From: Flavobacteriales bacterium | GTDB taxonomy: Bacteria > Bacteroidota > Bacteroidia > Flavobacteriales_D > Sanyastnellaceae | Direction: 5' to 3' | DNA length: 64,000 nucleotides | Assembly (NCBI GenBank): GCA_022447625.1 | Contig: JAKVAX010000015.1 | Coordinates: 25,099-89,098 of the forward strand | In this document: positions 2 through 63,745 of the stretch, piece by piece | Layout of the letters: every line of letters starts with the position of its first letter | Numbering within the stretch: position 1 is the stretch's first letter | Program-made: the position numbers and the translations under genes | The notes under the pieces: generated by a model | What the model was told of the DNA's origin: nothing | The model's input: the letters and a program-made list of their open reading frames with translations, nothing else | Databases searched by the model: none

Positions 2-2989
2 AACTATGGATTGCACCAGATTACCATCACAGGAATTGACCCGTATGGCAACGAGAGTGAATGTACATTCCAAGTTGCAGTCGATGATATTGTAGCGCCT
101 GTAATGACCTGTCCAAGCGACCTGACGGTGGATGCTTCAGCGGCATGTGCCTATGAACTTCCAGATTTTACTGTGAATGCGGTTATTTATGAACCTTGTG
201 GTTCGTACTCGATTACTCAAACTCCGGCACCGGGAACCGATCTTGGAATTGGAACGCACACCATTACATTGGAGGCAACTGACCTTCTCGGAAATAGCGC
301 CGATTGCTCCTTCGAGATCACCGTGAATGACACAACAGCCCCTAATGTTATTTGTCATGCAGATGTAGTGCGTAGTCTTTCCAATGATTGTACCTACTTC
401 GTTGAAGATTTCAGCGCCTCGTTGATCTACATCGAAACATGTGGAAATGTCACAATTCAACAGATACCGGCCATTGGTGTAGAATTGACTGCCGGAATTC
501 ATTCCATCGAGCTCACCATCACAGATGAGTCGAATAATCAATCCCTATGCAATTTTGATGTAACGGTTCAAGACAATCAAGCACCTACAGTCGTATATAA
601 CGGAGACTTCTTTTTCGAAGTGAACGAAGAATGTGAATTCGAAGTGCCTGACTTTACCCTTGATACCGTGTTTGATGATAACTGTGGGGTTACTCTAGTG
701 GAACAGACTCCTATTCAAGGCTCGATACTTGATATCGGAGATCATACGTGCACCATATACGTGGAAGACGCAGCAGGAAATTCAGATGAGATTGAATGGA
801 CTATTATTGTTCAAGACACAACAGCACCGGTGGTGAATTGCCCGGGCGATGCCCAACGATCAATTGCGGCTGACTGTGCCTATGTATTAGAAGATTTTAC
901 CGCCTTGGTAAATACTGAAGATCCTTGCGGTATTCAGTCGATTACACAAGATCCTTCACCAGGGTTACTGCTCGATGTTGATGTGTACTCGATCGAATTC
1001 ACGGTATTGGACATCCATGGAAATCAAAGCACATGCAGCTTTGCTCTGGATGTTCACGATGACACAGCACCTCAAATCACTTGCGTGGAACCCTTCACGG
1101 AAAACATCTCTGTATGCGCCTATGAGCTACCCGATTTGACGGGCACAGTAGACGTGAGCGATTGTCATCCTCTGACGGTAACGCAATCTCCAGTTGCAGG
1201 AACGCTTCTAGGAATGGGATCGCACACGATCGAATTTACTGTGACTGATAGCTATGGCAATCAATCCATGTGTACCACAGAAATCACGGTGGTCACTTCA
1301 GTGGATCCAGAGATTGAGTGCAGTGCCTTAAATCCCGTGAGTGTTGATGCGTGCTTCTATGTGATGCCAGATTACACAGGGAATGTTTCTATTCTTGCTG
1401 CGTGCGGTGATGCTGTTTCTATTTCACAGGAACCTGCTGCTGGAACGCAAGTGACCAATGAATTGATTGATGTGACATTCACGGTGGAAGACCTCTACGT
1501 AACCTCACAATGTGTCCAAGAACTTGAAATTACTTACGAAGTTGAATTGACGCTAGAATGCCAGGAGTCGGTGATCATCGAAGCGGTGGATCCGCTTTCA
1601 TGCGGCGCTGAATTAGATTACACTTTACCAACCGCTGAATTCCCTTGTGCAGAACCTGTCCTTTCTCAAGTTTCAGGACCAGAAATAGGAGACTTTTTAG
1701 CTCCAGGAATCTACGAAGTGGTTTGGAGCGCTCAAGTCGCTGAACAGGAGTTACAGTGTACAACAACCATTGAAATTAAAGACATGGTTCTCCCTGAGGT
1801 CACTTGCCCTTCTGATATTTCAAGCTGTAACCCTGTGGTTACCTTCACAGCTCCTGAGACATCAGATAACTGTGGAGTGGCGCAAGTGGAGCGTATTGAT
1901 GAATTGTCGCTCGAATCAGGTGATTCGTTCCCTGTCGGTACTTCTGTTCTCCAATACAAGGTGACTGACGTTCACGGAAATTCACAAGTTTGCGGGTTTG
2001 AAATCAAGATTCTTGATGCGGTTGAGGCGTCTTTCAGTACTGCTGAAATTGATGTTTGCGCTAACGCGGAATCGGTCGATCTGAATGAGCTGTTGCAGAC
2101 GAATGCAGACCAACTGACCTGGTCGTTAAATGCACCTTCTGGAATCTATGATCCAGCAATCGCAGGAAGTGATGAGGTCACGATTGAAGTTACTCTCGGT
2201 GAATGCGGAGGAAATACCTCCATTACCGTCAATGTGCACGCGTTGCCTGAAGTACATGCGGGAGATGACCTCGTGGTTTGTGGGATGAACACCACACTTG
2301 AAGCCATCACAGAAGGCGCTGTCATGGAGTGGGATATGCCGAATGAAATCATGACCCTTGACGGTGAAGGAACAAGCTCACCTGACATTGAAACAGATAC
2401 TTACGGTGAATTCGAACTGAATTTGACCGTGACCTCCACAATGGGGTGTGTAAATCAAGATGCAGTGCTAGTAACATTTGTGGAAGCTCCGCTGCCTGTG
2501 GATTTGGGAGAAGATATGTTCCTCGATTCTCCACGCTCTTTTGAAGTGCCTTATGATTACAATGGGGTTGGAGAAATGGAGTGGGAGTTTATCGATCTGA
2601 ATGCTTCGTTTGACGGTGATACTTTCTTCGCTAGCGCGGAAACACAAGGAGAATACATGCTCGTTGTGTCCGTTTCGAACGAACCATGCCCAACCTTAAG
2701 CGACTCTTTACGTGTCATAGTGAAAGACTTCCTAGTACCGAACGGTTTTTCTCCCGATCAAGATGGAATCAACGATGAATTCGTCATCCGAGGATTGGAT
2801 GAGTTAGGGGTAGTTACCCTGAACGTCTTCGACAAAAACGGAAACCTCGTTTACGCTAATGATGACTACGATAATAGCTGGGATGGAACAGACCGCAGAG
2901 GAAACAAACTACTTGCGGACACCTACTATGCAGTGATGGAAATGCAAGGCCAGGTTCACACCCAATTTTTGATCATAAAGTACGAATGA
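2..2989 (+). CDS. HYR-repeat surface protein with CHU_C C-terminal domain (5' truncated)
   Basis: The reading frame is open to the left edge (first full codon at base 2), so the N-terminus and signal peptide lie outside the window. The visible ~995 residues contain about seven to eight Ig-like HYR repeats of ~80 residues, each opening with a DxxAPxxxCP-type motif and closing with GNxxxCxFxxxV, near residues 27, 107, 187, 268, 350, 432 and 592. The last ~85 residues (VPNGFSPDQDGINDEF onward, with WDG and KLLADTYY) form a gliding-motility-associated CHU_C domain, a type B T9SS sorting signal. Expected to be a secreted cell-surface adhesin-like protein. Its stop overlaps the next start as ATGA, so it is co-transcribed with the PorP/SprF gene, as is usual for such adhesins. 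Two copies of the CGCTANCGCGGAA motif lie inside it (2059, 2629). Confidence 0.93.
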   Translation, partial: NYGLHQITITGIDPYGNESECTFQVAVDDIVAPVMTCPSDLTVDASAACAYELPDFTVNAVIYEPCGSYSITQTPAPGTDLGIGTHTITLEATDLLGNSADCSFEITVNDTTAPNVICHADVVRSLSNDCTYFVEDFSASLIYIETCGNVTIQQIPAIGVELTAGIHSIELTITDESNNQSLCNFDVTVQDNQAPTVVYNGDFFFEVNEECEFEVPDFTLDTVFDDNCGVTLVEQTPIQGSILDIGDHTCTIYVEDAAGNSDEIEWTIIVQDTTAPVVNCPGDAQRSIAADCAYVLEDFTALVNTEDPCGIQSITQDPSPGLLLDVDVYSIEFTVLDIHGNQSTCSFALDVHDDTAPQITCVEPFTENISVCAYELPDLTGTVDVSDCHPLTVTQSPVAGTLLGMGSHTIEFTVTDSYGNQSMCTTEITVVTSVDPEIECSALNPVSVDACFYVMPDYTGNVSILAACGDAVSISQEPAAGTQVTNELIDVTFTVEDLYVTSQCVQELEITYEVELTLECQESVIIEAVDPLSCGAELDYTLPTAEFPCAEPVLSQVSGPEIGDFLAPGIYEVVWSAQVAEQELQCTTTIEIKDMVLPEVTCPSDISSCNPVVTFTAPETSDNCGVAQVERIDELSLESGDSFPVGTSVLQYKVTDVHGNSQVCGFEIKILDAVEASFSTAEIDVCANAESVDLNELLQTNADQLTWSLNAPSGIYDPAIAGSDEVTIEVTLGECGGNTSITVNVHALPEVHAGDDLVVCGMNTTLEAITEGAVMEWDMPNEIMTLDGEGTSSPDIETDTYGEFELNLTVTSTMGCVNQDAVLVTFVEAPLPVDLGEDMFLDSPRSFEVPYDYNGVGEMEWEFIDLNASFDGDTFFASAETQGEYMLVVSVSNEPCPTLSDSLRVIVKDFLVPNGFSPDQDGINDEFVIRGLDELGVVTLNVFDKNGNLVYANDDYDNSWDGTDRRGNKLLADTYYAVMEMQGQVHTQFLIIKYE

Positions 2990-6073: not shown

Positions 6074-7045
6074 ATGAAAACAGCCATACTATTTTGTTTC
6101 TGCAGCCTCTTGGCCCTTGGCCTTTTAGCACAATCTGTTCCCGCTGAGGAAGAGAACATTCCATACTTGGTCACTTTTGGTAAAAATGCCGACCCCTCTT
6201 GGGGAGACGATGATTATTGCCAGACCTTTTTCTTTTCCATCCCTTCAGACCAAAAGACGCCTTTCTACATCCGCGTCTATGATCCTGATTGTGGGGGTGA
6301 GATTGATGAAATGAAAGAGACTTTCAACACCATGACACGTTTCTCAGTTTTTGGTGGAAAGAGCTGTATCACCGACGATGATGCCCGTTTAGTTGATCCT
6401 ATTGGGAACTACAAAAGCGGAACCTTGTTGGCTTCGAAGACCTTCGGTGGTCAAGCCGAATACGATGAGAAGTGGTACACCTTCGGACCATTTAACCCGG
6501 TCGAAGGAGAGCTTTCAGAAAAGTACGGCGGCTACATTTTCAAAATGATTTGTGAAGGAGTCCGTGGAGACGACGGTAATCTCTACAAGTATTACCTATC
6601 AAACTCACCTGACGCTAATGAAAGCGTAGAAGGAGGGAATGCATTCACTTTCGAATATACTTTCCGTCTGCATGCTGATTCTTGGCAGACTTCGCACGTG
6701 TATCCATACATCGATGATGCGGTGGTCTATCTCGCGCAGTCAAACTTTGACTGGGATGATGACGGCTACATTCGCATCTACAGCGTAGTGTCTTTTGCTG
6801 AGGAGCTCGAAACTTCAGGAGATAACAATTGGGCTCGCAACCAGTACACGATTAAAGACGAAGAACGGGGCAAGTCGCTCGACATTCAATTCACAAAAGA
6901 CGAATCGCTGCAGATCAATAATAATAACGTGGTGTTCTATGTGACTAATCAGTACGGCGAGTTGCTACCATTCTACACAGTACCGATCGGTGGCGTTCCT
7001 CGTTACCAAGGAAAAGCAGTCGCTAAACCTATTCAGCGTAGATGA
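6074..7045 (+). CDS. secreted protein of unknown function
   Basis: 323 residues with a signal peptide (MKTAILFCFCSLLALGLLAQ). I do not recognise the family. The body is acidic and aromatic, rich in D, E and Y, with only four cysteines in the mature part (DDYCQTF, PDCGGE, GKSC, MICEG). Repeated short beta-strand patterns suggest an all-beta extracellular fold. No T9SS sorting domain is evident at the C-terminus (ends KPIQRR). It sits 71 bp after the OmpA gene and its stop overlaps the ATG of the propeller-phosphatase sensor by 4 bp, so it may be a ligand-binding or accessory partner of that sensor; this is inference from coupling only. Confidence 0.85.
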   Translation: MKTAILFCFCSLLALGLLAQSVPAEEENIPYLVTFGKNADPSWGDDDYCQTFFFSIPSDQKTPFYIRVYDPDCGGEIDEMKETFNTMTRFSVFGGKSCITDDDARLVDPIGNYKSGTLLASKTFGGQAEYDEKWYTFGPFNPVEGELSEKYGGYIFKMICEGVRGDDGNLYKYYLSNSPDANESVEGGNAFTFEYTFRLHADSWQTSHVYPYIDDAVVYLAQSNFDWDDDGYIRIYSVVSFAEELETSGDNNWARNQYTIKDEERGKSLDIQFTKDESLQINNNNVVFYVTNQYGELLPFYTVPIGGVPRYQGKAVAKPIQRR

Positions 7046-10000
7046 GAAAGATTGCCATTGTCATATTGACCTTGTGCATCTCGTCTGGTGTTTATAGCCA
7101 GAACTTTGATCAACGCACATTTAAAGAGTCCGACGGGCTCTTTGAGCGTTTTATCTACTCGCTAGAACAGGCGCCCAACGGTTACTTGCTCGCTGGTACC
7201 GCCAATGGACTTTACCGATTTGATGGCAACTCATTCAGTGTTGCTGATACATCTGACGGACTTCCGAATAGCTTCATCACTGCTTCAGAAAGGGTAGGAG
7301 ATCATGTCTATTTCGGACATTTCGATGGGGCGATCAGTAAGACAGATGGAACCCAGTATCATTTGGTATACCCGGGTGGTGCGAACAATGAACGTGTGGT
7401 AGCCTCAGCGCATAACGCAGAGCATATTATTTTCCTACGTCAGAATGGAACACTGGTGAACATCAATATCGAAGGTGTGACCGAGATCATCGAAGTTTCC
7501 TTGGATGGCGCTTTGCCAAAGGATTGCTTGTTAGGTCTAAATAACGACGTTTTTATTGCCACAGATCTGGGTTTGGCTAGGTATGATTTTTCTTCTTCAC
7601 GTCTTTCTTGGGAAAGTGCCTTAGACGGCAAAGACATTACTAAGCTGCATTCGACAAATCAAGGAGTCTTGGCAGTGGCTATGGCTGGTTTCGGACTAGT
7701 TAGCTATGATCCCTCCTTGAGCGAGTTTACCCCGCTTTATTTGAATTCGACGACCACTTCTTGGGAGGTCACCGATATGTGCTATCGTCATAATGCTTTG
7801 TGGGTATCAACAAATAAGCAAGGTCTTTTCCGCCTTGATGAGCAGTTCAAAGGAGAGTATCAACGAGCTATTGAAGTCAATAAAGGCTTAAAGAACCCCG
7901 TGAATAGTACGGGTGTGCTATTCCTCGATAGAGAAGAAAACCTTTGGATTGGTAGCAATGGTGAAGGGTTAATGATGCTGTCAGATGACGTATTTAGATT
8001 GGAAAGTCTTGGTGGAAATTACCAGATCAATGACATTCTTGCACAGCAAAATTCTTGTTGGTTGGCCAGTGATAAAGGTCTTTTGCATTGGAACACCGAG
8101 ATGACAGAAACCACAGCAATGGTGGCCTTGCCAGATTCTGCTTCCGTTAGTCAACTTTCCCTTGATGATGCCTATCATTTATGGCTTGGTACTGAAGACC
8201 ATGGCCTTTATTGTTATGATCACAGAGAAGGAAAATTCGAGAAAGTTCGACTTTCTGATGACCGCTTAAATCAGCGGATTAATGATATTCTTAATGTTGG
8301 TGCCATTACTTACGTAGCTACAGATTTTGGTGTCTATCAGATTCGAGATAATCGTGTGATATCGCACTTGACTATGCAGTCTGGCCTTCCGCATAACGTT
8401 GTCAAAGCCCTGTTTCAATCTACCGATGGAACGATATGGATTGGAACGCGCAACAACGGTTTGGTCAAGATTGAAAGTGGCGTCATGCAAGCTATTGATC
8501 TCAAACAAGAACAGCTCATTGATGTCTCGTGTATTGATGAGGATCAAGTAGGGGATGTTTGGATTGGAACGAGCGGTGGCGGTGTCTTGAAAATTGATGA
8601 GTTGGGAGTCCACACCTTTGATCGTAGTTCAGGCCTGTTCTCAGATTACTGTTATGCTATTCACGCTAGCGCGGAAGGGTTTGTTTGGACTGGGCACAAA
8701 GGAGGTGTATCTCGTATTGGAATTGAGGGGGGGCAAATTCGAACCTTCACAACGAACGAACTTGGATTGGAGTCATTCATACCGAATTCAGTAGGCGGTG
8801 ATCGCTACGGACGAATTCTCTTCGCATCTGATCAAGGACTACTTTCCTATAACCCGGTAGAAGATTTGACGGATCAGGTAGCACCTCTGATCAACCTTAC
8901 GATGGTCAGCATCAGTGATAGCCTTTATCCATTGAATTCAGCGATTGAATTGCCTTCTGGCTCTTACCGATTTGATATCGGATTCGTTGGAATTAGCTTT
9001 TTGAATTCTGACCAGGTACGCTACGAATACTTCCTTGATGGACATGATCTCAGTTGGTCAGATCCGGTAGAGGAGTCGCATGTTCGCTATCCCCGATTGG
9101 ATCATGGTAGCTATACATTTAGGGTTCGCGCACTTGATGAAAGCGGACAAACGAACGGGGAAGAGGCTCAGTTGAAAATTTACATTGCCAAACCATTCTG
9201 GAAGGAATGGTGGTTCTTCTTCTTGGTGATTTTTGTGGTTTTCGTAACGACCCGTATCATTGTGAAGCGTCGGGAATTCGTAATGGTTCAAAATCAAGAA
9301 CGACTGCAAAAAGTGTTAGACATTCGAACACGAGAAGTGGTTCAACAGAAAGAACTGCTAGAAATTACCAACAAAGACATTACCGATAGTATTCGCTACG
9401 CTAAGAACATTCAGAAGGCTATTCTTCCTGAACCAGACTCTTTGCAAAGCCACTTTAGAGATTCCTTTGTTTTCTATAAACCACGCGACATTGTTAGTGG
9501 TGATTTCTATTGGGTAGAGAAGTTTGGAAGCAAAGTGCTCATCGCATGTGCTGATTGTACTGGACACGGAGTACCAGGGGCTTTCATGTCGATGATTGGA
9601 ACGGTACTTCTGAAAGATGTAAGTAAGAAGCATAACGTTTGGTCACCTGACGAACTACTTTACAATCTTGACAAGGAACTGACTGAGATGTTGTACAACG
9701 AGAATAGTCCTTTCACCGTTCGTGACGGTATGGATATTTCCATTGTAGAATATGATCATGATACCAGCATGCTCCGATTCAGTTCAGCAAAACGTCCGGT
9801 AGTGGTATATCACGATGGTGTACGTTCTGAAATTAAGGGGGATCGTCACTCTGTTGGTGGCACCGGACTCGCCATGGGTAAACGATTCACCTTGCATCAA
9901 ATGAAGCTTTCACCTGGAGATATCTTCTATCAATTCAGCGATGGAATATCAGATCAATTCGGAGGAGCAAATGGTAAAAAGCTCAAGAAAAGTGGACTTA

Positions 10001-10131
10001 TGCAGATTTTTGATTCCATTCATAATCTCAGCCTTGATGTTCAGCGAAATATGCTCCATCAGCGCTACTTTGAATGGAAAGGGCACCACCCGCAAATTGA
10101 TGATATTATTGTATTAGGCATACGTGTCTAA
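7042..10131 (+). CDS. two-component-type propeller sensor fused to SpoIIE/PP2C phosphatase
   Basis: 1029 residues: signal peptide (to ~20), a two-part beta-propeller of Reg_prop repeats (LWIGSNGEGL, IWIGTRNNGL, VWIGTSGGGV, VWTGHKGGV) to ~residue 600, a Y_Y_Y domain at ~640-705, one membrane helix at ~715-735 (WWFFFLVIFVVFVTT), a short coiled coil, and a C-terminal SpoIIE-type PP2C domain from ~785. The phosphatase keeps metal-binding aspartates in SGDFYW, CADCTGHG and FSDGISDQF. It resembles hybrid two-component systems of Bacteroidota with the kinase replaced by a serine phosphatase, so it would pass a periplasmic signal to a cytoplasmic phosphoprotein. No anti-anti-sigma partner is in the window. 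It carries the repeated DNA motif at 8664. The stop overlaps the convergent next gene by 4 bp. Confidence 0.93.
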   Translation: MRKIAIVILTLCISSGVYSQNFDQRTFKESDGLFERFIYSLEQAPNGYLLAGTANGLYRFDGNSFSVADTSDGLPNSFITASERVGDHVYFGHFDGAISKTDGTQYHLVYPGGANNERVVASAHNAEHIIFLRQNGTLVNINIEGVTEIIEVSLDGALPKDCLLGLNNDVFIATDLGLARYDFSSSRLSWESALDGKDITKLHSTNQGVLAVAMAGFGLVSYDPSLSEFTPLYLNSTTTSWEVTDMCYRHNALWVSTNKQGLFRLDEQFKGEYQRAIEVNKGLKNPVNSTGVLFLDREENLWIGSNGEGLMMLSDDVFRLESLGGNYQINDILAQQNSCWLASDKGLLHWNTEMTETTAMVALPDSASVSQLSLDDAYHLWLGTEDHGLYCYDHREGKFEKVRLSDDRLNQRINDILNVGAITYVATDFGVYQIRDNRVISHLTMQSGLPHNVVKALFQSTDGTIWIGTRNNGLVKIESGVMQAIDLKQEQLIDVSCIDEDQVGDVWIGTSGGGVLKIDELGVHTFDRSSGLFSDYCYAIHASAEGFVWTGHKGGVSRIGIEGGQIRTFTTNELGLESFIPNSVGGDRYGRILFASDQGLLSYNPVEDLTDQVAPLINLTMVSISDSLYPLNSAIELPSGSYRFDIGFVGISFLNSDQVRYEYFLDGHDLSWSDPVEESHVRYPRLDHGSYTFRVRALDESGQTNGEEAQLKIYIAKPFWKEWWFFFLVIFVVFVTTRIIVKRREFVMVQNQERLQKVLDIRTREVVQQKELLEITNKDITDSIRYAKNIQKAILPEPDSLQSHFRDSFVFYKPRDIVSGDFYWVEKFGSKVLIACADCTGHGVPGAFMSMIGTVLLKDVSKKHNVWSPDELLYNLDKELTEMLYNENSPFTVRDGMDISIVEYDHDTSMLRFSSAKRPVVVYHDGVRSEIKGDRHSVGGTGLAMGKRFTLHQMKLSPGDIFYQFSDGISDQFGGANGKKLKKSGLMQIFDSIHNLSLDVQRNMLHQRYFEWKGHHPQIDDIIVLGIRV

Positions 10132-15303: not shown

Positions 15304-18300
15304 TTAGCGTACGATTACGCGCGCTGTTTTCACCATTCCGTTCTGCTCGAACTGCACGAGGTAAAGTCCAGATCCGAATTGATCTAGGTTTACTTCGACT
15401 TGAGCTCCGGCAGGTAGGTTTTGCAATGGAAGTGCAGCAACAGTGCGTCCTGTCATGTCCATTACAGAAAGTGTTGCGATATCAACGTTGTTGTTGAAAC
15501 GTACATTGAAGATACCAGTGTTCGGGTTAGGGAATACTGACAGCGCTTCCGCGGTAGCGAATACTGTTTCTTCTTCAATAGAAGTTACACAACCTAGGAA
15601 CATACGCTCATCAAGGAATGACCAACCGTGTAGCCAAGTACATTCCTCAGATGGATCAAATGCACCTTTGTAAGCTGCAGCTGTGTACCAATCTCCTTCT
15701 ACAGGATCAGCATCAACGTTCCCTTCCGGCTTCACCATCAACATTTCTGAACCTTCTTCAATTTCATAGTTCAATTGTGGATCTGCCACTTCGTTACCAT
15801 TCGAAGCGAATGATGCTTGGAAGGCAGCTGTGGAGGCATTCAGTGCTTCTGTCGAGTCTGATTCAGAAGCCCATCCAGATCCCATAGAAATCTTGAAGAT
15901 ATCTTCCGCGGTAGCGTCAGCAGAAACAACATCATAGAAACAGCTATTCGCAATAACCAATTCACCGTCTTGGAATCGCTGGTAGCTATCCTGTCCTGAA
16001 GGAAGGTTTTCGATATCAACACCACGTCCCCAGTTGTAGAAGATAGAGTTGTGGTACTGACCTCCTGCGTTGTCACGGAATGTCAATGCACGCTTTCCAG
16101 CATCCATACCACGCCCCATGTAAGTTGCATTGTAAATCATTGGAGTAGCGTAAGGAGCACCGTCTTCTGGGTTCGTACCACCATCGTGCTCACCACCTCG
16201 GTCACCTTCACCGTCAGTATCATCATGAACAGTGAACCAGAACTGTCCTTGTCCACGCCATCCTTCGTCGTAATCGAAAGAATCATCGCCACAGAAGGCA
16301 ACAGCAGCGTGTTTCACACGAGCAGTTCCCCCGAAGAATTCAATACCGTCATCTGCATTTGAAACAACTTCTACGTAATCGATGGTTGTTGCAGATCCAA
16401 CACCACCTAGCGTGATACCGTTGATTTCGTTACCAGCACCAATGTCTGATCCACCGTGACGCACAGAGATGTAACGAATAACTCCAGAGTTATCTTCATT
16501 GTCTGTACCACCGTAAAGTCCACGCTCTTCAGTTTCAGGAATACCTTCAATCTGTGTCTCTCCTGGCTCAGAGTTCAATTCTGCATTTCCAAGAACGATC
16601 AAACCACCCCATTGACCACGCGTGTCGTAAGGAACTGAACCGTCTAGTGGATCTGCTTCGAAAGTGAAGATTACAGGGTTGTTTGGAGTACCTTCAGCGA
16701 AGATCTTTCCACCACGAGCAACTACTAGCGCGGATGCATCAGCACCTGTTCCGGCCATACCTTTGATAACAGTTCCAGGTTCGATTGTCAAACACTGACC
16801 GTCATTCACGAATACGAAACCGTCAAGAATGTATGTGTTACATGCTTTCCATGTAGTAGTTCCTGTTCCAGAACCGTCATCTGATACTACGATTGTTTGA
16901 TCGCAATCATCATTATCAGCGCTGCTCAAGAAACCGTATTGATCGAGCATAGTCCAGCCAAATAGCCAGTTCTCTTGATCTGGGTTAAATGCTCCTTTGA
17001 AAGAAACAGCATCGAACCAATCCAAAGTCGCAGGAGTACCACCACCAAAGTTAGTTACAGGTACTGGATTCAATCCTTCGGAGTTAGGGATCACTTCATA
17101 TTCTAGCCCTAGGTCAGCCACCTGGTTGTTGTTTCCTTGGAATGATGCTACGAAAGCTTCAGTAGACGCATTCAGTGCATTTGTAGAATCTGATTCTGAA
17201 GCCCATCCTGATCCCATTGAAATCTTGAATAGGTCAGATGCAGTTGCATCTTGTCCAGAACAAAGGTCGCCATCCATAACAACGTCTTGGAATACGTTAC
17301 CTGCAAAGGCTAAAGAACCATCAAGGAAACGCTCGTAGCTATCTTCTCCAGATGCTAGGTTCTCAATGTCAATTCCGCGACCCCAGTTTGCGAATACTGA
17401 GTTGTGGTATTGACCACCGGCATTATCACGCATAGTGATTGCACGTTTTCCAGCGTCGATTCCGCGACCAATGTACGTAGCGTTGTATAATACTGGAGTT
17501 CCGAAAGGCATACCGTCTTCAGGGTTGGTACCTCCGTCGTGTTCTCCACCACGGTCACCTTCACCACCTTCAACGTCGTGTACACAGAACCAGTACTGTC
17601 CGTATCCTCGCCATCCTTCATCGTAGTCGAAAGAGTCATCTCCACAGAAGGCAACAGATGCCCACTTGATGTTGGCTGTTCCTCCGAAGAATTCAATACC
17701 GTCATCCGCATTTGAAATAACTTCAACGTGCTCTATAACAGTACCAGAACCAACACCACCGAGTGTCAGTCCGTTAATCTCATTTCCAGCACCAATATCA
17801 GTACCTCCGTGACGGATCGAAATGTATTGGATCACGCCAGAGTTGTCAGTATTGTTGCTTCCTCCGTAAAGTCCACGCTCTTCCGTCTCAGGAATACCTT
17901 CAATTTGTGTTTCTCCAGGCTCAGAGTTTAATTCTGCCGCTCCAAGAACGATAACCCCACCCCATTGACCTCGTGTGTCGAATGGAATAGAACCATCAAG
18001 AGGATCTTCTTCGAATGTGAACACAATCGGAGCGTCTGCCGTTCCGTTTGCGAAGATTTGTCCACCGCGTGCTACAACCAACGCAGATGCATCTGCTCCA
18101 GTTCCAGCGATACCTTTAATTACTGTTCCCGCTTCAATAGTCAGAACTTGTCCGCTATTTACGAATACGAATCCGTCAAGGAAGTAAGTGTTGTCGTTGG
18201 TCCAGGTTGTTGTACCTGTACCAGAACCATCGTCTGTTACGATGATGTCAGCAGCGCTAATTGATCCTGCGAAGAGGATTGCTAGTAGCATCATGCTTGA

Positions 18301-18318
18301 GCGTAAAAGTGTAGTCAT
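15304..18318 (-). CDS. secreted tandem-duplicated beta-helix-like protein with T9SS sorting domain
   Basis: 1004 residues. A signal peptide (to ~22) is followed by two homologous halves of ~445 residues, starting near 24 (IIVTDDGSGTGTTTW) and ~470 (TIVVSDDGSGTGTTTW). Each half holds LTIE.GTVIKG, GGVIVLG, a Gly/Asp-rich segment (SFDYDEGWRG, GDRGGEHDGGTNPEDG) and RGIDIE-like turns, consistent with a right-handed beta-helix. The last ~80 residues (VFPNPNTGIFNVRF ... GLYLVQF ... VIVR) are a type A T9SS sorting domain. No catalytic motif is recognised. It neighbours a TonB receptor with a matching operator, so it may be a surface binding or scavenging protein working with that receptor (inference). 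The halves are diverged, so the duplication is old. Motif CGCTACCGCGGAA occurs twice (15547, 15904). Confidence 0.9.
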   Translation of the reverse strand: MTTLLRSSMMLLAILFAGSISAADIIVTDDGSGTGTTTWTNDNTYFLDGFVFVNSGQVLTIEAGTVIKGIAGTGADASALVVARGGQIFANGTADAPIVFTFEEDPLDGSIPFDTRGQWGGVIVLGAAELNSEPGETQIEGIPETEERGLYGGSNNTDNSGVIQYISIRHGGTDIGAGNEINGLTLGGVGSGTVIEHVEVISNADDGIEFFGGTANIKWASVAFCGDDSFDYDEGWRGYGQYWFCVHDVEGGEGDRGGEHDGGTNPEDGMPFGTPVLYNATYIGRGIDAGKRAITMRDNAGGQYHNSVFANWGRGIDIENLASGEDSYERFLDGSLAFAGNVFQDVVMDGDLCSGQDATASDLFKISMGSGWASESDSTNALNASTEAFVASFQGNNNQVADLGLEYEVIPNSEGLNPVPVTNFGGGTPATLDWFDAVSFKGAFNPDQENWLFGWTMLDQYGFLSSADNDDCDQTIVVSDDGSGTGTTTWKACNTYILDGFVFVNDGQCLTIEPGTVIKGMAGTGADASALVVARGGKIFAEGTPNNPVIFTFEADPLDGSVPYDTRGQWGGLIVLGNAELNSEPGETQIEGIPETEERGLYGGTDNEDNSGVIRYISVRHGGSDIGAGNEINGITLGGVGSATTIDYVEVVSNADDGIEFFGGTARVKHAAVAFCGDDSFDYDEGWRGQGQFWFTVHDDTDGEGDRGGEHDGGTNPEDGAPYATPMIYNATYMGRGMDAGKRALTFRDNAGGQYHNSIFYNWGRGVDIENLPSGQDSYQRFQDGELVIANSCFYDVVSADATAEDIFKISMGSGWASESDSTEALNASTAAFQASFASNGNEVADPQLNYEIEEGSEMLMVKPEGNVDADPVEGDWYTAAAYKGAFDPSEECTWLHGWSFLDERMFLGCVTSIEEETVFATAEALSVFPNPNTGIFNVRFNNNVDIATLSVMDMTGRTVAALPLQNLPAGAQVEVNLDQFGSGLYLVQFEQNGMVKTARVIVR

Positions 18319-21510: not shown

Positions 21511-21834
21511 ATGAGCGAAAATCAAACATCTGAACTAACGAAAAGGGTCATGATCGTAGGGAAGCATGACTACATTATCGAGAAACTCGAAGGCATTCTT
21601 AAACTGGCCAAATTCGGGACACTCGGTTCTTCTGATCCGGAAAGGATCATGCGGATGCTACGCGAAGAAGATTTTGATCTGCTACTGATTGGCGGTGGTA
21701 TTGAACCCCACAGTCGTCTAGCGTACATCGAATACATTCAATCACACAAGCCTGATGTAAGAGTTGTAGAGCACTACGGCGGGCCAGCAACCATCTTAAG
21801 CGAGGTACACGGAGCCCTCGGGTTTACAGCATAG
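21511..21834 (+). CDS. small receiver-like (pseudo-receiver) protein
   Basis: 107 residues from ATG 21511 (a GTG three codons upstream is possible). The pattern VMIVGKHDYIIEKLEGIL...FDLLLIGGGIEP...VRVVEHYGG follows the alternating alpha/beta order of a CheY-like receiver. The acidic pair after beta-1 is replaced (GK) and the expected phospho-aspartate after beta-3 is glycine (LLIGGG), so it cannot be phosphorylated in the usual way. No output domain. It lies alone on the plus strand between two minus-strand genes and overlaps the downstream convergent gene by 11 bp. Confidence 0.7.
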   Translation: MSENQTSELTKRVMIVGKHDYIIEKLEGILKLAKFGTLGSSDPERIMRMLREEDFDLLLIGGGIEPHSRLAYIEYIQSHKPDVRVVEHYGGPATILSEVHGALGFTA

Positions 21835-23346: not shown

Positions 23347-23460
23347 GACAAAGTGTTTGGATAAAATTAAGCAATTCTTGTACCAAAGTGGAAAGCGGAT
23401 TGCGGAATGTGGAATGCTGTGCATCCCTAAATAGCGTTGACCTGTTGGTTCAACATTCTA

Positions 23461-36102: not shown

Positions 36103-36263
<161 letters not shown>

Positions 36264-39176: not shown

Positions 39177-39319
39177 GCCGTAGGCTGTATGCAGTATGCG
39201 GTAGGCTGATTAGCATGGTTAGTTCGCCTTTGGCGATAGCGTGAATAGCATGGTTAGTTCGCCTTTGGCGATAGCATGGTTAGTCTGTCCACCGTCCACC
39301 GTCCACTGTCTATCTTTTA
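39177..39319. repeat. composite intergenic repeat: GTAGGCTG words, two 38-bp-type hairpin elements, GTCCAC array
   Basis: 39177-39210 has GTAGGCTGTATGCAGTATGC-type words. 39212-39240 and 39247-39284 are two copies of the AGCATGGTTAG-TTCGCC-TTT-GGCGA-TAGC element, the second complete at 38 bp. 39286-39319 is a GTCCACCGTCCAC array. Modules abut without spacer genes. Confidence 0.8.
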
Positions 39320-41013: not shown

Positions 41014-41149
41014 AGTTCGAAAGATTAGGTTGATACTCGATCACTTAGGGTTACGCCGGTGATGAAGGGAGGTCTGTGGGATTGTGTATGATGAAAGTGT
41101 CAGTGAAATTCCCTTGATCTGTAGGGCAATTCCTCATCGCCACTTTTGG

Positions 41150-41157
41150 TACATTTG
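41150..41157 (+). promoter_or_regulatory. -7 promoter element of the glycosyltransferase gene
   Basis: TACATTTG, exact TAnnTTTG, six bases before the ATG at 41164, implying a leaderless or near-leaderless transcript. Confidence 0.6.
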
Positions 41158-41163
41158 CCGCAG

Positions 41164-50489: not shown

Positions 50490-51590
50490 TCACTCGTCGA
50501 GATTCCGCGTTAGCGAGTCAACCACCTTAAACCCAGAAAGGAATTCGCTTGCTATAATTCGGATTAAGGTATAGGCTGGAATAGCTAAGATCATTCCACC
50601 CACTCCAGCAAGTGCCCCAGCCATCGAAATCACGATGAAAATCTCTAGTGGATGAGCATTTACGCTATTACTGAAGATGAAAGGTTGAATGACGAAATTA
50701 TCAATCAATTGCACTGTCAAGAATACGCCGCCGATGCTGAGAATAAGCGGTAGCAATTCTGAATTAAAGTCCATTTGAAGATTGGTCGTCACCGCGATAA
50801 AGATTCCGATCAACGCACCTATAATCGGCCCGAGATAGGGGACAAGGTTGACGAGTCCGGCCAAGAAACCAATCAAGAAAGCATTCTCTACCCCGAAAAT
50901 GGAAAGCCCGAGCGTCACGAGTAGGGTGATGATACTTACCTGAGCCACAAGACCAACGAAGTAGCGTGAGAGCAATTTCTTCGTTTGTAGGATGATGCTT
51001 TTCATTTCATCCATGCGCTTGTCAGGGGTGAGTGTCAGGATGATTCGATTCACCATGTTGCCGTCTTGAAGAAAGAAGAAGGTGATGAACAACACGGAGA
51101 ACAGCGCGATCACTGCATTTCCAATTACACCGAAGATGTTATTGAAGATTCCGCGAATATCACCGAAGCTAACCAGGGCTTGGAGCTGTTCTACTAGAAA
51201 AGCCTCATTTGAACGGTCATCACCGCTGAGGTTGAATTGTTCTAGGTAGCTCATGGTGCTTTCGAACTGATTGTTCAAATTGGCTGAGAAGGCCTCGACA
51301 TCAATTTGAGACAATGCTTGAGCCTCTTCTGCGACCAAAGGGGCGAAGATGTTTAAGAACAAGAATATGATAAGCAGAAAGCTGGCGATGGTGAGAATGG
51401 CTGCAACACTCGAAGGTATTTCGCGCTTTCCAATTTTGATCTTTCGCAGCAACCGAACGATAGGTGCACCTACCAATGAGATTACCGCCGCTACAATCAC
51501 GTAGTTAACAATGGTTTGGAAGTACCAAAGAGCAAGACAAAGGAGAATACCTCCTATAATTCCAAGGATGTATCGCAGGTTTTTGCTCAT
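50490..51590 (-). CDS. AI-2E family transporter (PerM/YhhT-like membrane protein)
   Basis: 366 residues with a typical helix pattern: paired N-terminal helices, an amphipathic region (QIDVEAFSANLNNQFEST), then helices containing GLVNLVPYLGPIIGALIGIF and FVIQPFIFSNSVNAHPLEIFIVI, the family signatures. Exporter or transport function generally unproven, with some members acting as ion antiporters. The start overlaps the stop of the SixA-like gene by 4 bp (ATGA). The DNA motif CGCTAACGCGGAAT (minus orientation, 50502) encodes its last residues SLTRNLDE. Confidence 0.9.
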   Translation of the reverse strand: MSKNLRYILGIIGGILLCLALWYFQTIVNYVIVAAVISLVGAPIVRLLRKIKIGKREIPSSVAAILTIASFLLIIFLFLNIFAPLVAEEAQALSQIDVEAFSANLNNQFESTMSYLEQFNLSGDDRSNEAFLVEQLQALVSFGDIRGIFNNIFGVIGNAVIALFSVLFITFFFLQDGNMVNRIILTLTPDKRMDEMKSIILQTKKLLSRYFVGLVAQVSIITLLVTLGLSIFGVENAFLIGFLAGLVNLVPYLGPIIGALIGIFIAVTTNLQMDFNSELLPLILSIGGVFLTVQLIDNFVIQPFIFSNSVNAHPLEIFIVISMAGALAGVGGMILAIPAYTLIRIIASEFLSGFKVVDSLTRNLDE

Positions 51591-52297: not shown

Positions 52298-52957
52298 ATG
52301 GCCAGTCAAACAGTTGAAAATTATTTGAAGTGTATCTATGCGCTTCAGCAGTATTCGCCAGAAGGGGTGAGTACAAACGCTATCGCGGAACGCCTGGAAA
52401 CCCAGGCTTCTTCAGTGACCGACATGTTGAAGAAACTGAAGACGAAAGGACTGGTCAACTACAAGAAATACAAGGGGGCGCATTTGACGGATAACGGGAT
52501 GAGTATCGCCATAGATATTATTCGTCGCCACCGCTTGTGGGAAGTGTTCTTGGTTGAGAAACTCGACTTCAAATGGGATGAAGTGCATCCGATTGCTGAA
52601 GAGTTGGAACACATCGCTTCAGAAGAGCTATTCAAACGTCTCGATTCATTCCTAGGTCACCCACAATATGACCCGCATGGAGATCCCATTCCTGATGCCG
52701 ACGGCAATTTCCGAGATAACCGAGACAAGGTAGCAGTGAGCGCTTTGAATGAAGGGGAAGGAGGTATTCTCGTTGGGGTGCGCGATTCTTCTCAAGAGTT
52801 CTTGCAGTACCTCGATTCTATCAAATTGACACTTGGTTCGTCGATCACCGTTGAAGAGCGATTCGCCTTTGATCAGAGCGTCCGTGTGAGTCTCGGTAAA
52901 CAACAACAGCAGCTTTCACAGCTCGTTGCACGAAATCTACTTGTTTTAAAATCCTAA
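52298..52957 (+). CDS. DtxR/MntR family metal-dependent regulator
   Basis: 219 residues: winged helix-turn-helix (STNAIAERLETQASSVTDMLKKLKTKGLVNYKKYKGAHLT), dimerisation and metal domain with RRHRLWEVFLVEKLDFKWDEVHPIAEELEHIAS (His and Glu ligands), then a C-terminal FeoA/SH3-like domain. Represses or activates genes in response to Mn or Fe. Only 4 bp from a ZIP transporter gene, so it probably controls that transporter. The motif CGCTATCGCGGAA at 52378 overlaps codons of NAIAER in the recognition region. Confidence 0.93.
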   Translation: MASQTVENYLKCIYALQQYSPEGVSTNAIAERLETQASSVTDMLKKLKTKGLVNYKKYKGAHLTDNGMSIAIDIIRRHRLWEVFLVEKLDFKWDEVHPIAEELEHIASEELFKRLDSFLGHPQYDPHGDPIPDADGNFRDNRDKVAVSALNEGEGGILVGVRDSSQEFLQYLDSIKLTLGSSITVEERFAFDQSVRVSLGKQQQQLSQLVARNLLVLKS

Positions 52958-53783: not shown

Positions 53784-53798
53784 GCTCTGCCTAGCCAA

Positions 53799-53869
53799 GG
53801 CGTATGGCCTAAGGCCTAAGACATAAGTAGACTCGCTTACGCCTTAAGCCATATGCCCTAAGCCTAAAA
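53799..53869. repeat. inverted GGCNTA repeat array between convergent genes
   Basis: Left arm GGCGTATGGCCTAAGGCCTAAG, right arm CTTACGCCTTAAGCCATATG followed by CCCTAAGCCT; the arms are imperfect inverted copies. The Mpl stop codon lies inside the right arm. It may serve as a bidirectional terminator for the convergent ZIP and Mpl genes. Confidence 0.65.
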
Positions 53870-55198
53870 GAGAGTTGCTCCTCCCCAATTCCCAGAACTC
53901 ATCAGCAAACGTACACTGTTTGCTTTGTCTTGGGACTCAATGAACGCCTGCATTTCTTGGGCGTCTGTGAAGACTTTTAAGTCGTTCCGGCCGAAGGCCT
54001 GAGAAACATCTTCTATTGTAATTTCAGGTAGGCGCTTGTGGGCTACTACATCTGGTGAAAAGTAGACCAAGGCAGTGTTGGCAGCGTTCATGGCCCCTTC
54101 GTAGTGATGAAGGAAGGCTTTGTTGAGGCTAGAGAAGGTGTGGAGTTCCATACACGCCAACAAATGCCTGTTAGGGTACATTTCTTTTACTGCTGAGGTG
54201 GTTGCCTTTAGCTTGCTTGGAGCGTGTGCAAAGTCGCGATAAACAATGTAGTCATCTTCTTCATGCATTTTCTCTAGTCTTCGGCTAGCGCCTCGGAAAT
54301 GCTGCATGGCTTCGTAGAAGTTTGCGGTGGAAACACCCAGTTCGGCGCAAACCAATCTGGCTCCCTCCATATTTTGAAGGTTGTGCTTTCCAAAGACCTG
54401 GATAGGAATTTCTTCATTCTCGAGTTTTAAGAAGGTCTTTCCATCGTCAATGCGGTAGTTAGGGGTGTGATAGGGCAAGGCGCGAATGCCTTCACGGGCA
54501 GTCTTCGCCACCTTGACCACTTCTTCGTCTTCTGCGTTGTAGATTAAGACACCACCATCTTCAATTTTCGAAACGTAGATACGGAACTGTTCAACGTAGT
54601 TATCGAAAGTCGGGAATACGTTCATGTGATCCCATGCGATACCGCTGATGAGAGCGATGTGCGGGTTGTACAGGTGAAATTTCGGACGACGATCAATAGG
54701 AGAGGAGAGGTATTCGTCTCCTTCAAAAACGGCGATTGGTGTTTCATCTTTCAAGAGTACACTGCGTTCGAAACCATCGAGCAATGCGCCTACCATGTAA
54801 TCGTGATCAACCTTGTTGTAGTTCAAGGCATGTAGCACCATTGAAGTAATGGTGGTCTTTCCATGGCTACCGCCGATGACAGCTCGTTTCTTGGAACGCG
54901 TTCTTTGGTAGAGGTATTCTGGGTAGGAATAAATATTCAAACCGAGCTCTTTTGCTTTCAAGAGTTCAGGGTTGTCTTCACGTGCATGCATGCCGAGGAT
55001 GATGGCATCGAGGCCTTCATGAATCTTCTCAGGGAACCAGCCGAATTCAGTCGGAAGAATTCCCGTATCTGCTAGTCGTGAACGCGATGGTTCAAAGATC
55101 TCGTCGTCTGATCCGGTTACAGTATCTCCTTGGTGTGCAAGGGCGAGCGCAAGGTTGTGCATAGCGCTTCCGCCAATGGCGATAAAATGAACATTCAT
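53864..55198 (-). CDS. mpl: Mpl-type UDP-N-acetylmuramate:tripeptide ligase (Mur ligase family)
   Basis: 444 residues from ATG 55198 (family N-terminus MNVHFIAIGGSAMHNLALALA). ATP-binding GGSHGKTTITSMV, then VFEGDEY, HIALISGIAWDHMNVFPT and DFAHAPSKLKATTSAV. The GDEY and DFAHAP patterns fit Mpl rather than MurC. It attaches recycled L-Ala-gamma-D-Glu-meso-Dap to UDP-MurNAc in peptidoglycan recycling. Its 3' end is embedded in a repeat array. Confidence 0.88.
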   Translation of the reverse strand: MNVHFIAIGGSAMHNLALALAHQGDTVTGSDDEIFEPSRSRLADTGILPTEFGWFPEKIHEGLDAIILGMHAREDNPELLKAKELGLNIYSYPEYLYQRTRSKKRAVIGGSHGKTTITSMVLHALNYNKVDHDYMVGALLDGFERSVLLKDETPIAVFEGDEYLSSPIDRRPKFHLYNPHIALISGIAWDHMNVFPTFDNYVEQFRIYVSKIEDGGVLIYNAEDEEVVKVAKTAREGIRALPYHTPNYRIDDGKTFLKLENEEIPIQVFGKHNLQNMEGARLVCAELGVSTANFYEAMQHFRGASRRLEKMHEEDDYIVYRDFAHAPSKLKATTSAVKEMYPNRHLLACMELHTFSSLNKAFLHHYEGAMNAANTALVYFSPDVVAHKRLPEITIEDVSQAFGRNDLKVFTDAQEMQAFIESQDKANSVRLLMSSGNWGGATLF

Positions 55199-55811: not shown

Positions 55812-56684
55812 ATGAATAAGTTTTGGCCTGACTTCCGCCTTGGTATCCGCACCTACTTCAAGAGCTTCGGGTTTATCGTGCGCAACAAGATGATGCACTT
55901 CTATTTGTATCCTTTGTTGTTTATTATCCTATTTAGCGTTGGGGCTACCGCCGGAATCGGATACATCAATGATACTGTGAATCCATGGATTCTTGATCTA
56001 ATCGGCGCTCAGCCTGTTCCAGGAGATGGATGGTGGGAGATCACCCTGAACTTCCTTTCGAACATCAGTACTTACGTAGTGAGTTTCTTGGTGTGGCTGA
56101 TCATGATTTACATTTTCTACAAGATCAGTAAGTACGTTGTCTTGATTGTCATGTCGCCAGTGATGGCATTGATTTCTGAGAAAACCGACGCGGTAGTTAC
56201 AGGACAGAGTTTTCCTTTCTCCTGGAAGCAACTCATGAAAGATGTAGTACGAGGAATTCGAATAGCGCTTCGGAATTTCATCTTTGAAATGAGTATTACC
56301 GTTAGTTTGCTCATCGTAAACCTATTCATCACCATTTTCTTGGCGCCGTTGTCTGTCATTACTTCACCTGCGGTCCTAGTCATTAATTTCTTGGTAAGTG
56401 CGTACTATTTCGGTTTCTCTACAATGGACTATACCAACGAGCGTTACCGTGTCAGTTTCCGCGATAGCGTGAAGAAGATTAGAGCCCAAAGAGGACTAGC
56501 AGTAGCGAATGGTGGAATCTTTGCGCTTTGGCTTATGATACCAATTCTAGGAACCTTTATTGGGACAGTATTCGCGCCAGTCACATGTACTGTAGGCGCA
56601 ACACTTGCATTGCTTGAAAAGCGAGAGAAAGGGGCAATAGAAGGATACGAGTTGGATATCGATCAGAAATCGATCGAAGGGTAG
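55812..56684 (+). CDS. EI24/CysZ-like membrane protein
   Basis: 290 residues, four or more helices; RLGIRTYFKSFGFIVRNKMMHFYLYPL at the N-terminus and YYFGFSTMDYTNERYRVSFRDSVKKIRAQRGLAVANGG are EI24-domain features. CysZ is a sulfate transporter, but no cys genes are nearby, so the substrate is open. The stop abuts the convergent protease-like gene stop with no gap. CGCTATCGCGGAA (minus orientation, 56457) lies in its SFRDSV codons. Confidence 0.82.
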   Translation: MNKFWPDFRLGIRTYFKSFGFIVRNKMMHFYLYPLLFIILFSVGATAGIGYINDTVNPWILDLIGAQPVPGDGWWEITLNFLSNISTYVVSFLVWLIMIYIFYKISKYVVLIVMSPVMALISEKTDAVVTGQSFPFSWKQLMKDVVRGIRIALRNFIFEMSITVSLLIVNLFITIFLAPLSVITSPAVLVINFLVSAYYFGFSTMDYTNERYRVSFRDSVKKIRAQRGLAVANGGIFALWLMIPILGTFIGTVFAPVTCTVGATLALLEKREKGAIEGYELDIDQKSIEG

Positions 56685-58256: not shown

Positions 58257-58591
58257 ACGTGATGGTACTAATATACTAAGGTAACGAAAAATGATGGGTC
58301 TTACAAGGGCGCTTGGTTGGAAGCCTAAACATCTTCATAGGCCTAAGGCTTATGGCCTATGGCTTAAGGAGATTGGTGCAGAATAGGAGGGTGAGCATGA
58401 TTAGTCCGCCAATGGCGGTTAGCATGATTAGTTTGTCCACTGTCCACTGTCCACTGTCCACCGTCCACCGTCCACTGTCTACCGCCTACAACACCCGTGC
58501 TTCCTTACGCCCGAAAACTGGGGTGTTGAGAGGGATGTGAAATTAATTTTACCTTGATCTGTAACAAACCAGAAATACGATCGTCTTCGCT
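58257..58591. repeat. 335-bp intergenic region built of repeat modules
   Basis: 58338-58370 is a GGCCTAAGGCTTATGGCC array. 58394-58431 is a complete 38-bp AGCATGATTAG hairpin element. 58432-58492 is a long GTCCACTGTCCAC array ending in CTACCGCCTAC. The last ~100 bp is the leader of the sigma-factor operon, with no clear -7 element. Confidence 0.75.
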
Positions 58592-60091: not shown

Positions 60092-60092
60092 T

Positions 60093-62443: not shown

Positions 62444-63745
62444 ATGCGAACTATTCTCTCTCTTCTCGTCGCGGGCGTATTCACGCTTTCCGCGTCAGCT
62501 CAAAACTGTGTAGACTTAGATGAAGTTGATTTTGGCGATTGCGAAATGGCCATGGGAATTGGCCTGGTTAATGGTGAATGTACCTTCATTTCAGGCTGCG
62601 GCTGGGAAGTTGGTGGAGTGGATTATAGTCCTTACGCTTTTGAAGATTTCGAATTATGCGAAGCTTGCCTTGACGGCGATTGCTTTGACGTCGGGGGTAT
62701 CAATTTCGGTCTTTGTGATATGGCAATGGGGTTTGCACTAGTGAATGGACAATGCATGTTTGTTTCAGGCTGCGGTTGGGAAGTTGGCGGTGTAGATTAC
62801 AGCCCTTACTTCTACCAAAACATTGAAGACTACCAAGCATGCTTAGATACTGATTGCGTCGATCTTGGCGGGGTAGACTTCGGCGACTGTGACTTTCCAT
62901 TAGGTATCGCCATTGTCAATGGTGAGTGCACGGAGCTTTCTGGATGTGATTGGGTGGTTAACGGATTTGACTATTCCCCTTATTTCTTTGATGACATAAG
63001 TGAATGCGGTTCTTGCCTTGACTCTGATTGCTTCGATGTATACGGTATTGACTTCGGTCTTTGTGAAGCTGTGCTCGGAGTCGCTCTGTTAAACGGAAGC
63101 TGTTCATACGTCTCAGGTTGCAGTTGGGTCGTTGGAGAAACAGACTATTCAATCTATGGATTTGACGACATAGAAGACTGCCAAATAGCTTGCGGAGGCT
63201 GCATCGATCAAACCCTCATCGGACAACAAGACTGCGGTGCTGAAGCTGAACCAGATCCGGTATGTGGTTGTGATGGCGTTACTTACTGGAACGATTGCGT
63301 AGCCATGTACGAATATGGGATCACTGAATTTACTGACGGTCCGTGCTCATGCTTTGATCAAGCGGTAATCGACCCTGGCGTTCTGTGCTTGACTCTCTAT
63401 GATCCAGTGTGTGGCTGTGATGGCGAAACGTATTCAAACAGCTGTGTAGCTTGGTATGGGAACGGTGTCACGGAATGGGTTCCGGGAGAGTGCAATAACA
63501 GCGTCAATGACCTGAATAAACTATCACTCAAAGTATGGCCCAATCCAGCTTCTGATATTCTGAATATTCAACTCAATATCGCTAGCGCGGAATACCGACT
63601 CACGGATATCAACGGCAGACTCATTCAAGCCGGAAACTTAAACGCATACCTCAACACCATCAATGTCACCAACCTAGCGAAAGGAATGTATGTGTTGGAA
63701 GTGAGAAGCGGAGCGGCAAGCCAGATGGTTCGAGTTATGAGATAG
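62444..63745 (+). CDS. secreted protein with four Cys-rich repeats, two Kazal domains and a T9SS sorting domain
   Basis: 433 residues. Signal peptide (MRTILSLLVAGVFTLSASAQ), then four tandem 58-residue repeats starting at codons 62507, 62681, 62855 and 63029 (exactly 174 bp each). Each is built on C-x5-(D/N)FGxC ... NGxC ... SGC.W.V...DYS.Y. Next come two Kazal-like domains (DPVCGCDGVTYWNDCVAM and DPVCGCDGETYSNSCVAW) and a type A sorting domain (VWPNPASDILNIQL ... GMYVLEVRSG). Kazal domains usually inhibit serine proteases; the repeats are not a family I recognise. CGCTAGCGCGGAAT at 63580 lies in the sorting domain. Confidence 0.9.
   Translation: MRTILSLLVAGVFTLSASAQNCVDLDEVDFGDCEMAMGIGLVNGECTFISGCGWEVGGVDYSPYAFEDFELCEACLDGDCFDVGGINFGLCDMAMGFALVNGQCMFVSGCGWEVGGVDYSPYFYQNIEDYQACLDTDCVDLGGVDFGDCDFPLGIAIVNGECTELSGCDWVVNGFDYSPYFFDDISECGSCLDSDCFDVYGIDFGLCEAVLGVALLNGSCSYVSGCSWVVGETDYSIYGFDDIEDCQIACGGCIDQTLIGQQDCGAEAEPDPVCGCDGVTYWNDCVAMYEYGITEFTDGPCSCFDQAVIDPGVLCLTLYDPVCGCDGETYSNSCVAWYGNGVTEWVPGECNNSVNDLNKLSLKVWPNPASDILNIQLNIASAEYRLTDINGRLIQAGNLNAYLNTINVTNLAKGMYVLEVRSGAASQMVRVMR

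Follow-up and report, generated by a model that had tools for sequence, protein, structure and literature searches.

To our knowledge, DNA uptake tags have so far been reported just in two families of Proteobacteria. According to the passages cited here and below, the DNA uptake sequence (DUS) of the Neisseriaceae has eight described dialects (PMC3630211), whereas the uptake signal sequence (USS) of the Pasteurellaceae has two dialects and a substitution origin (PMC1626085, PMC2346458) and is enriched between genes (PMC2346458). Both occur at a density of roughly one per kb (PMC1626085), and for both a molecular drive has been proposed in which biased uptake is combined with homologous recombination (PMC1939737). 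In the Bacteroidota, Riemerella columbina prefers its own DNA (PMC7965970); competence in Riemerella needs ComEC and DprA and follows a pilus-free route, the cited passages reporting that no pilus homologues were found there, and the candidate k-mers of up to 10 bases shown in these passages are A-rich (PMC8459023, PMC7965970). Here we describe a dispersed word, CGCTANCGCGGAA, present in 13 exact copies in 64 kb of a Flavobacteriales genome (contig JAKVAX010000015.1, positions 25,099 to 89,098; hereafter the window). The word may well be a DUS-like self-tag kept by biased DNA uptake and differing in dialect between lineages, a reading for which we find the evidence evenly balanced.

Abundance and build of the word

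The 13 copies given in the preliminary description were recovered in a recount, and none appeared in any of 100 dinucleotide shuffles. An order-4 Markov model predicts about 0.08 copies per 464 kb, which scales to about 0.01 in 64 kb and is close to the 0.008 matches estimated beforehand. The genome holding the window (G000; 3.9 Mb, 76 contigs) contains 307 forward and 360 reverse copies, 667 altogether, against 1 + 0 for the reversed word, and the genome-wide count that had been suggested as a check is thus not near background. Its sister species G002, assembled as one contig, carries 401/369 (770) copies, and the reversed-word controls across both genomes gave 0–1. These counts correspond to about one copy per 5.9 kb in G000 and one per 5.3 kb in G002. 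Among 114 genomes of the family, G000 included, the word occurs in bulk only in these two, whereas the other 112 have 0–2 copies; G001, the third genome of the genus, has one. In a comparison covering 9.5 kb, G002 and the window share about 92% identity, and the matching pieces of G001 reach 64–73%. All three window sites inside the 9.5-kb stretch are kept in G002.

An orientation or segregation word, one of the roles proposed earlier, is not supported. No strand polarity was seen in G002, either over the whole contig (401/369) or in its first 400 kb (38/31), and its first 1.02 Mb holds 100 forward copies where an even spread predicts 100. A polar word had been considered for G002, where only plus-strand copies were among the places listed, and was dropped in view of the 38/31 ratio and the average forward density. 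Spacing is near random, with a coefficient of variation of 0.86 in the G000 sample and 0.91 in the G002 sample. A 19-base extension of the word had two matches in a collection of genome contigs, both in Chloroflexota-type metagenome-assembled genomes, where about two are expected by our own size-based estimate; a 17-base form had two matches among viral contigs, a collection from which, as from the genome contigs, records near the window were possibly excluded.

The build of the word was examined in two samples that together hold 159 copies: 464 kb from G000, among them the window, and 400 kb from G002, with 10,226 bases masked. It is an inverted repeat, CGC-TANC-GCG, followed by a GAA tail, and the earlier suggestion of a palindrome-type element was therefore partly right; inverted-arm words recur in relatives, as described below. 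Exact copies far outnumber those with one mismatch (90 vs 27 in G000, 69 vs 15 in G002). The sixth base favours G (54/90 in G000, 34/69 in G002, and 8/9 among copies not inside a gene), and the other bases are found mainly in the reading frame where they switch between Ser, Ile, Asn and Thr. Upstream, T makes up 49% of positions −6 to −1 over all 159 copies and 60% in the 61 that are not in the main frame defined below, and 59% of the 159 have G at position +15. No shared flanks beyond this T-rich lead and the G-rich (GG) sequence after the word were seen in the samples. The G000 sample also contains the over-represented words TGTAACTA/GCATGTAACT, and a hairpin followed by ACTAA occurs 11 times against 1.2 expected.

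Placement in genes and origin of the copies

About 93% of the sampled DNA is coding, as judged by a simple open reading frame (ORF) method made for this analysis. The copies lie in sense orientation in 113 cases and antisense in 37 (150/159 inside genes), with 8 in intergenic DNA and 1 spanning the end of a gene. The intergenic share is what chance predicts, 9/159 not being inside a gene compared with about 7% non-coding DNA. Sense frame 2 (xxC GCT ANC GCG GAA), the main frame, accounts for 98/159 copies, and the other 61 are in other open frames of either strand or between genes. Placement is limited by a TAG stop that arises in one antisense frame, and this frame contains no copies.

The main frame spells the tetrapeptide A-[INST]-A-E, which was counted in ORFs of at least 100 aa over 423 kb of coding sequence in G000, 368 kb in G002 and 374 kb in G001. 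There are 70, 52 and 14 such tetrapeptides, respectively, of which the exact word spells 54/70, 43/52 and 0/14, whereas codon usage predicts only 0.38 word-spelled ones in G000 and 0.27 in G002. When those spelled by the word are subtracted, 16, 9 and 14 remain. By this comparison, most main-frame copies appear to have brought a new A-x-A-E peptide, though not all, exemplified by the window site at 52378, where G001 has the same peptide. The over-representation in coding DNA is a DNA-level drive or selection that overrides protein sequence, since 54 word-spelled peptides face 0.38 expected and all openable frames are used.

This supports an action on DNA rather than protein, as put forward in the preliminary description, by selection or by drive; the way out that it had named, codon usage alone with copies confined to one frame, agrees neither with these counts nor with the 61/159 copies outside the main frame. 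Its remark that the copies encode different peptides needs qualification. Ten window copies lie in ORFs of at least 150 aa, and seven of these share one frame and encode the similar ANAE, ASAE, ATAE and AIAE; the other three encode LARN, LTRN and, antisense, FRDS.

The copies look substituted, not inserted. Three window sites could be aligned with G001 (50503, 52378 and 56457), and none of the three shows a gap; in our translation the peptide at 52378, TNAIAER, is identical in the window and G001 and the codons alone differ. At 41960, none of the 119 aligned glycosyltransferase homologues (of 7,695 found) is gapped opposite the word peptide. At 63580, a variable-length turn in a protein with a type IX secretion system (T9SS) tail, 3 of 78 aligned homologues (1,630 found) are gapped and 2 gap columns fall in the query. 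A test of this kind served to show that USS are not insertions (PMC1626085).

The window copies are collected in Table 1. Eleven of the 13 coordinates given earlier were exact and two minus-strand ones were off by one (23709 is 23710, and 50502 is 50503); both near copies are present with one mismatch each. The window proteins are of Bacteroidota type (PorP/SprF, CHU_C, Por_Secre_tail of the T9SS, TonB receptors), and the named homologues of two of them come from Flavobacteriales and Cryomorphaceae bacteria, among others.

Table 1. Exact and near copies of the word in the window (positions within the 64-kb stretch)
Sequence	Position	Strand	Context
CGCTAACGCGGAA	2059..2071	+	sense in ORF 11-2989, peptide ANAE
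CGCTAGCGCGGAA	2629..2641	+	sense in ORF 11-2989, peptide ASAE
CGCTAGCGCGGAA	8664..8676	+	sense in ORF 7042-10131, peptide ASAE
CGCTACCGCGGAA	15547..15559	-	sense in ORF 15304-18318, peptide ATAE
CGCTACCGCGGAA	15904..15916	-	sense in ORF 15304-18318, peptide ATAE
CGCTAGCGCGGAA	22827..22839	+	between ORFs 21824-22795 and 22852-23424; T run precedes
CGCTAACGCGGAA	23710..23722	-	not in any ORF of at least 150 aa
CGCTATCGCGGAA	38433..38445	+	in sense frame 0 of an ORF shorter than 150 aa
CGCTAGCGCGGAA	41960..41972	+	sense in glycosyltransferase ORF 41146-42180, peptide PLARN
CGCTAACGCGGAA	50503..50515	-	sense in AI-2E transporter ORF 50490-51590; conserved in G002; ungapped substitution in G001
CGCTATCGCGGAA	52378..52390	+	sense in iron-dependent-repressor ORF 52298-52957, peptide AIAE; kept in G002
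CGCTATCGCGGAA	56457..56469	-	antisense in ORF 55812-56684; kept in G002; G001 differs without a gap
CGCTAGCGCGGAA	63580..63592	+	sense in T9SS-tailed ORF 62444-63745, peptide ASAE
CGCTTGCGCGGAA	25603..25615	+	near copy, 1 mismatch
CGCTCACGCGGAA	41439..41451	+	near copy, 1 mismatch

Other repeats are also present in the window. Tandem GTCCACNGTCCAC-type repeats occur at 36134-36238, 39287-39306, 58435-58475 and 63886-63905, and similar k-mers are over-represented in G002; an intergenic repeat (GGCGTATGGC.../CCTTAAGCCATATGCC) at about 53796-53875 has about 20 short matches across G002.

Elements of relatives and the pilus operon

Blind scans of relatives revealed other words. G027, which together with G008 belongs to another genus of the same family, has 384 + 418 = 802 copies of GGCATNCGCCAAA, its build given as GGC-ATNC-GCC-AAATG, against 0 for the control; 17 copies are found in G008 and 0–2 in 11 other genomes, and 21 of the 24 copies sampled in G027 are inside genes. 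G008 has the forms GCC-(A)TTC-GGC-AAATG and GCG-N4-6-CGC-AAATG, which are more often intergenic (5/17, 6/13 and 5/19 for three forms). The arms covary in G027 as well as in G008, where, with the AAATG tail, a right GGC goes with a left GCC 27 times and with GCG once, and a right CGC with GCG 15 times and never with GCC. Other arm pairs are also found in G008, such as CGC with CGC (11). GCACAAGGCAAATG, with 138 copies in G008, 43 in G027 and 0 in 11 others, may be a separate repeat and not a dialect, because it forms close inverted pairs in places.

The element of G001 is C-[N5]-(A/G)(A/G)AA-[N5 complement]-GGATG after T-rich DNA, with 81 occurrences in 400 kb for loops of 3–4 bases; allowing loops of 2–6 gives 84, with 43 in sense orientation, 21 in antisense and 20 not in any ORF of at least 100 aa. 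Among 96 sites of the form RRAA+N5+GGATG, the arms are fully complementary in 67 (4.1 on average and at most 13 in shuffles) and carry a single mismatch in just one, so it is arm pairing that is conserved, even though there is also a bias in the inner letters of the arms. The top k-mers of G001, GGCGTCCCTATCC and similar, were rejected as a dispersed word because most of them come from tandem arrays at single places. Long arrays of 60-bp tandem repeats (GGACGCCAGGATGGCGTCCCTATCCGTG...) are found in G001:C2 at about 99900-105200, and an array of GGGCACGCATGCGTGCCCCTAT palindromes, one per about 46 bases, in G002:C1 at about 259,300-259,850.

These elements are built alike: two inverted arms enclose a spacer of about 4 bases, and the tail after them is fixed. 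The window word (CGC-TANC-GCG-GAA) fits this build. A T-rich lead is evident in G000, G002 and G001 and can be seen among the G008 sites listed. In G007, 7 of the 83 GGATG in 37 kb follow a hairpin, which is no more than suggestive, and no comparable enrichment was seen in 80 kb each of G021 and G013. A scan for the tails gave a few 4-copy matches in G310 and G212, and a candidate word in G041 has 4 copies within one 20-kb stretch.

Genes for competence and pili were also searched for. ComEC is present in 12/12 (G027 not among them) and DprA in 13/13, with or without the word. In a set of 245 genomes from the order with a completeness of at least 90%, 38 encode a full-length T2SSE/PilB-type ATPase, among them G000, G002, G008 and G027; G001 has no match to this ATPase family. 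These four, the ATPase-positive family members in that set, all have dialects. The presence of a pilus was discarded as the whole explanation: it separates G000 and G002 from G001, but does not account for all dialects, because the ATPase-less G001 carries hairpins of its own.

The ATPase of G000 (C46) and G002 (C1:2185000-2204999) is part of a type IVa-like pilus operon that also encodes a type IV pilin and a secretin. A prepilin-peptidase-like protein scores 23.7 bits, under the Pfam cut-off, and GspL/PilM- and PilO-like proteins are assigned from position and size alone. The G002 operon further encodes a GspF/PilC protein and two pilin-like proteins recognised by N-terminal sequence (weak or no family match); the G000 contig stops before these genes. 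In published trees, as given in the passage cited, the so-called type II secretion system of Bacteroidetes falls with type IVa pili (PMC6668835). The operon pilin matches PF16732 (ComP_DUS, the family of the DUS receptor) at 29.2 bits, where the cut-off is 27.3, and the G008 pilin scores 28.5. At E <=0.001 this family is found in 19 of the 245 genomes, all ATPase-positive and 7 of them above the cut-off, and in 0 of 14 controls. The operon pilin is a candidate receptor only.

Explanations and comparison with known systems

Of the roles listed in the preliminary description, an uptake-type sequence fits best, and the interpretation given there is partly supported overall. If the word is a self-tag, the cell would preferentially import DNA bearing it, and hence DNA of its own kind. 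Fragments with the word would be imported more often and then recombine into the chromosome, so that mutations toward the word would spread and mutations away from it be replaced, a molecular drive; each lineage's dialect would differ since its receptor differs. Such a drive would explain together the exactness, the substitution-type origin, the use of both strands, the override of protein sequence and the lineage dialects.

Several observations weigh against uptake. The density of one copy per 5–6 kb is under the roughly one per kb of USS and DUS, and there is no intergenic enrichment, unlike for USS. ComEC and DprA are also present in word-free genomes. G001 has about one hairpin per 5 kb yet no pilus ATPase. 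A classical receptor would have difficulty in recognising its freely varying, perfectly matched arms in duplex DNA; it may be that DNA enters G001 without a pilus, as in Riemerella, or that the hairpins have some other reader. Among the 120 homologues listed, several of them named from other Bacteroidota groups, nearly all share 56–64% identity with the pilin, and such conservation is not obviously that of a dialect reader in the course of divergence. The structural model of the pilin (pLDDT 82) has Thermus thermophilus PilA4 as best fold match, followed by other type IV pilins, with no ComP among the 50 matches listed. No PF16732 match was obtained for G027, though the contig there stops next to the ATPase gene, and neither G000 nor G002 showed a second full-length ATPase (PilT-type). 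Finally, a blind scan of 40–65 kb from each of 13 pilus-positive genomes of other families, drawn from the 34 such genomes among the 38 ATPase positives, found no comparable word; this is weak evidence, because the same scan missed the looser form of G008 in 3 of 4 60-kb samples. On account of the lower density, the lack of intergenic enrichment and G001, we keep the uptake reading in even balance and leave the receptor unnamed.

The word might instead be a site for an intracellular chromosomal protein (nucleoid, recombination-hotspot or repair), kept by direct selection and not by uptake. A sharp 12-base consensus, spread genome-wide on both strands, would suit this, as would the similar counts (667–802) in three genomes with two different words. 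We nevertheless consider it unlikely, if a serious contender, as there is no strand polarity of the kind known from Chi/KOPS-type words, protein-overriding selection at each of some 700 sites is hard to justify, and the entire word has been swapped within one genus. The perfect pairing in G001 (67/96 against a shuffle maximum of 13, with one single mismatch), the covarying arms of G008 and G027 and the likewise paired CGC-TANC-GCG-GAA of G000 point to another possibility, a mini-hairpin dialect read as folded single-stranded DNA, either by an HUH/REP-type transposase-like enzyme or during single-strand entry. This seems rather improbable to us: the arms are fixed in G000 and G002, where pairing cannot be separated from sequence, G008 also has other arm combinations such as CGC with CGC, and the copies appear substituted, not inserted. 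A related proposal would see the tags as the Bacteroidota's own, with dialects defined by a fixed sequence (CGC-TANC-GCG-GAA; GGC-ATNC-GCC-AAATG) at one end and by shape alone at the other, the perfectly paired mini-hairpin of G001 with an AAAA-type loop, GGATG tail and largely free sequence, the folded strand being read during uptake; we offer it tentatively and think it doubtful.

A signal in mRNA would predict the excess of sense over antisense copies (113 vs 37 in the G000 and G002 samples, 43 vs 21 in G001), but a quarter to a third of the copies are antisense, and tolerance at the peptide level suffices for the excess since compatible peptides in the word-free G001 are already distributed 16 sense to 8 antisense. 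We regard an RNA signal as very improbable. Codon usage, chance or a transposable repeat could be argued from the 98/159 copies in one frame, an explanation of negligible probability that is refuted by the 0.38 expected against 54 found, the lack of common flanks beyond the T-rich lead and GG, and the ungapped alignments.

If the word is an uptake tag, it would be a third independent case, in another phylum, and congeners that differ in their tags would make the origin and evolution of uptake specificity testable. A DNA-level drive that reshapes a proteome would also be clearly exemplified, since by the peptide counts most main-frame copies brought an A-x-A-E peptide lacking in the background, and the word would give a candidate function to the type IVa-like pilus operon of Bacteroidota.

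An uptake-type word with dialects is of a known kind. In the open-access papers searched, on the word itself and on competence or uptake sequences in Bacteroidetes, no earlier report was found of this word, of such tags in this phylum, or of the other words and the hairpin form. The one paper found to contain the same 13 letters concerns hepatitis C virus NS2.

Chi/KOPS-type words are strand-polar along replichores, whereas no strand polarity was seen for this word in G002. Repetitive extragenic palindromic (REP) sequences, with their REP-associated tyrosine transposases (RAYT), are extragenic inserted palindromic units, and HIP1 is another palindrome; the word shares with both the character of a dispersed short inverted repeat but, unlike REP, 150/159 of its copies are genic and no gaps are found at sites 41960, 50503, 52378 and 56457. 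Riemerella competence belongs to the same phylum, and ComEC and DprA are present here as there; in contrast, G000 and G002 have a pilus operon, and the Riemerella candidate k-mers cited above are A-rich.

The two proteobacterial tags are close parallels. The word differs from DUS, whose receptor is ComP, in phylum and letters, in its density of about one per 5–6 kb, in its T-rich lead and in that a congener without the pilus ATPase has elements of its own. Like DUS, it is present in hundreds of near-exact copies on both strands and in genes, its placement is restricted by a stop in one reading frame, a ComP_DUS-family pilin is found in word-bearing genomes, and there are lineage dialects. Compared with USS, the T-rich part lies 5' of the core, the density is lower and intergenic enrichment is absent; a sharp core with a T- or AT-rich flank, a substitution origin and the favouring of one orientation in genes are features that the word and USS share.

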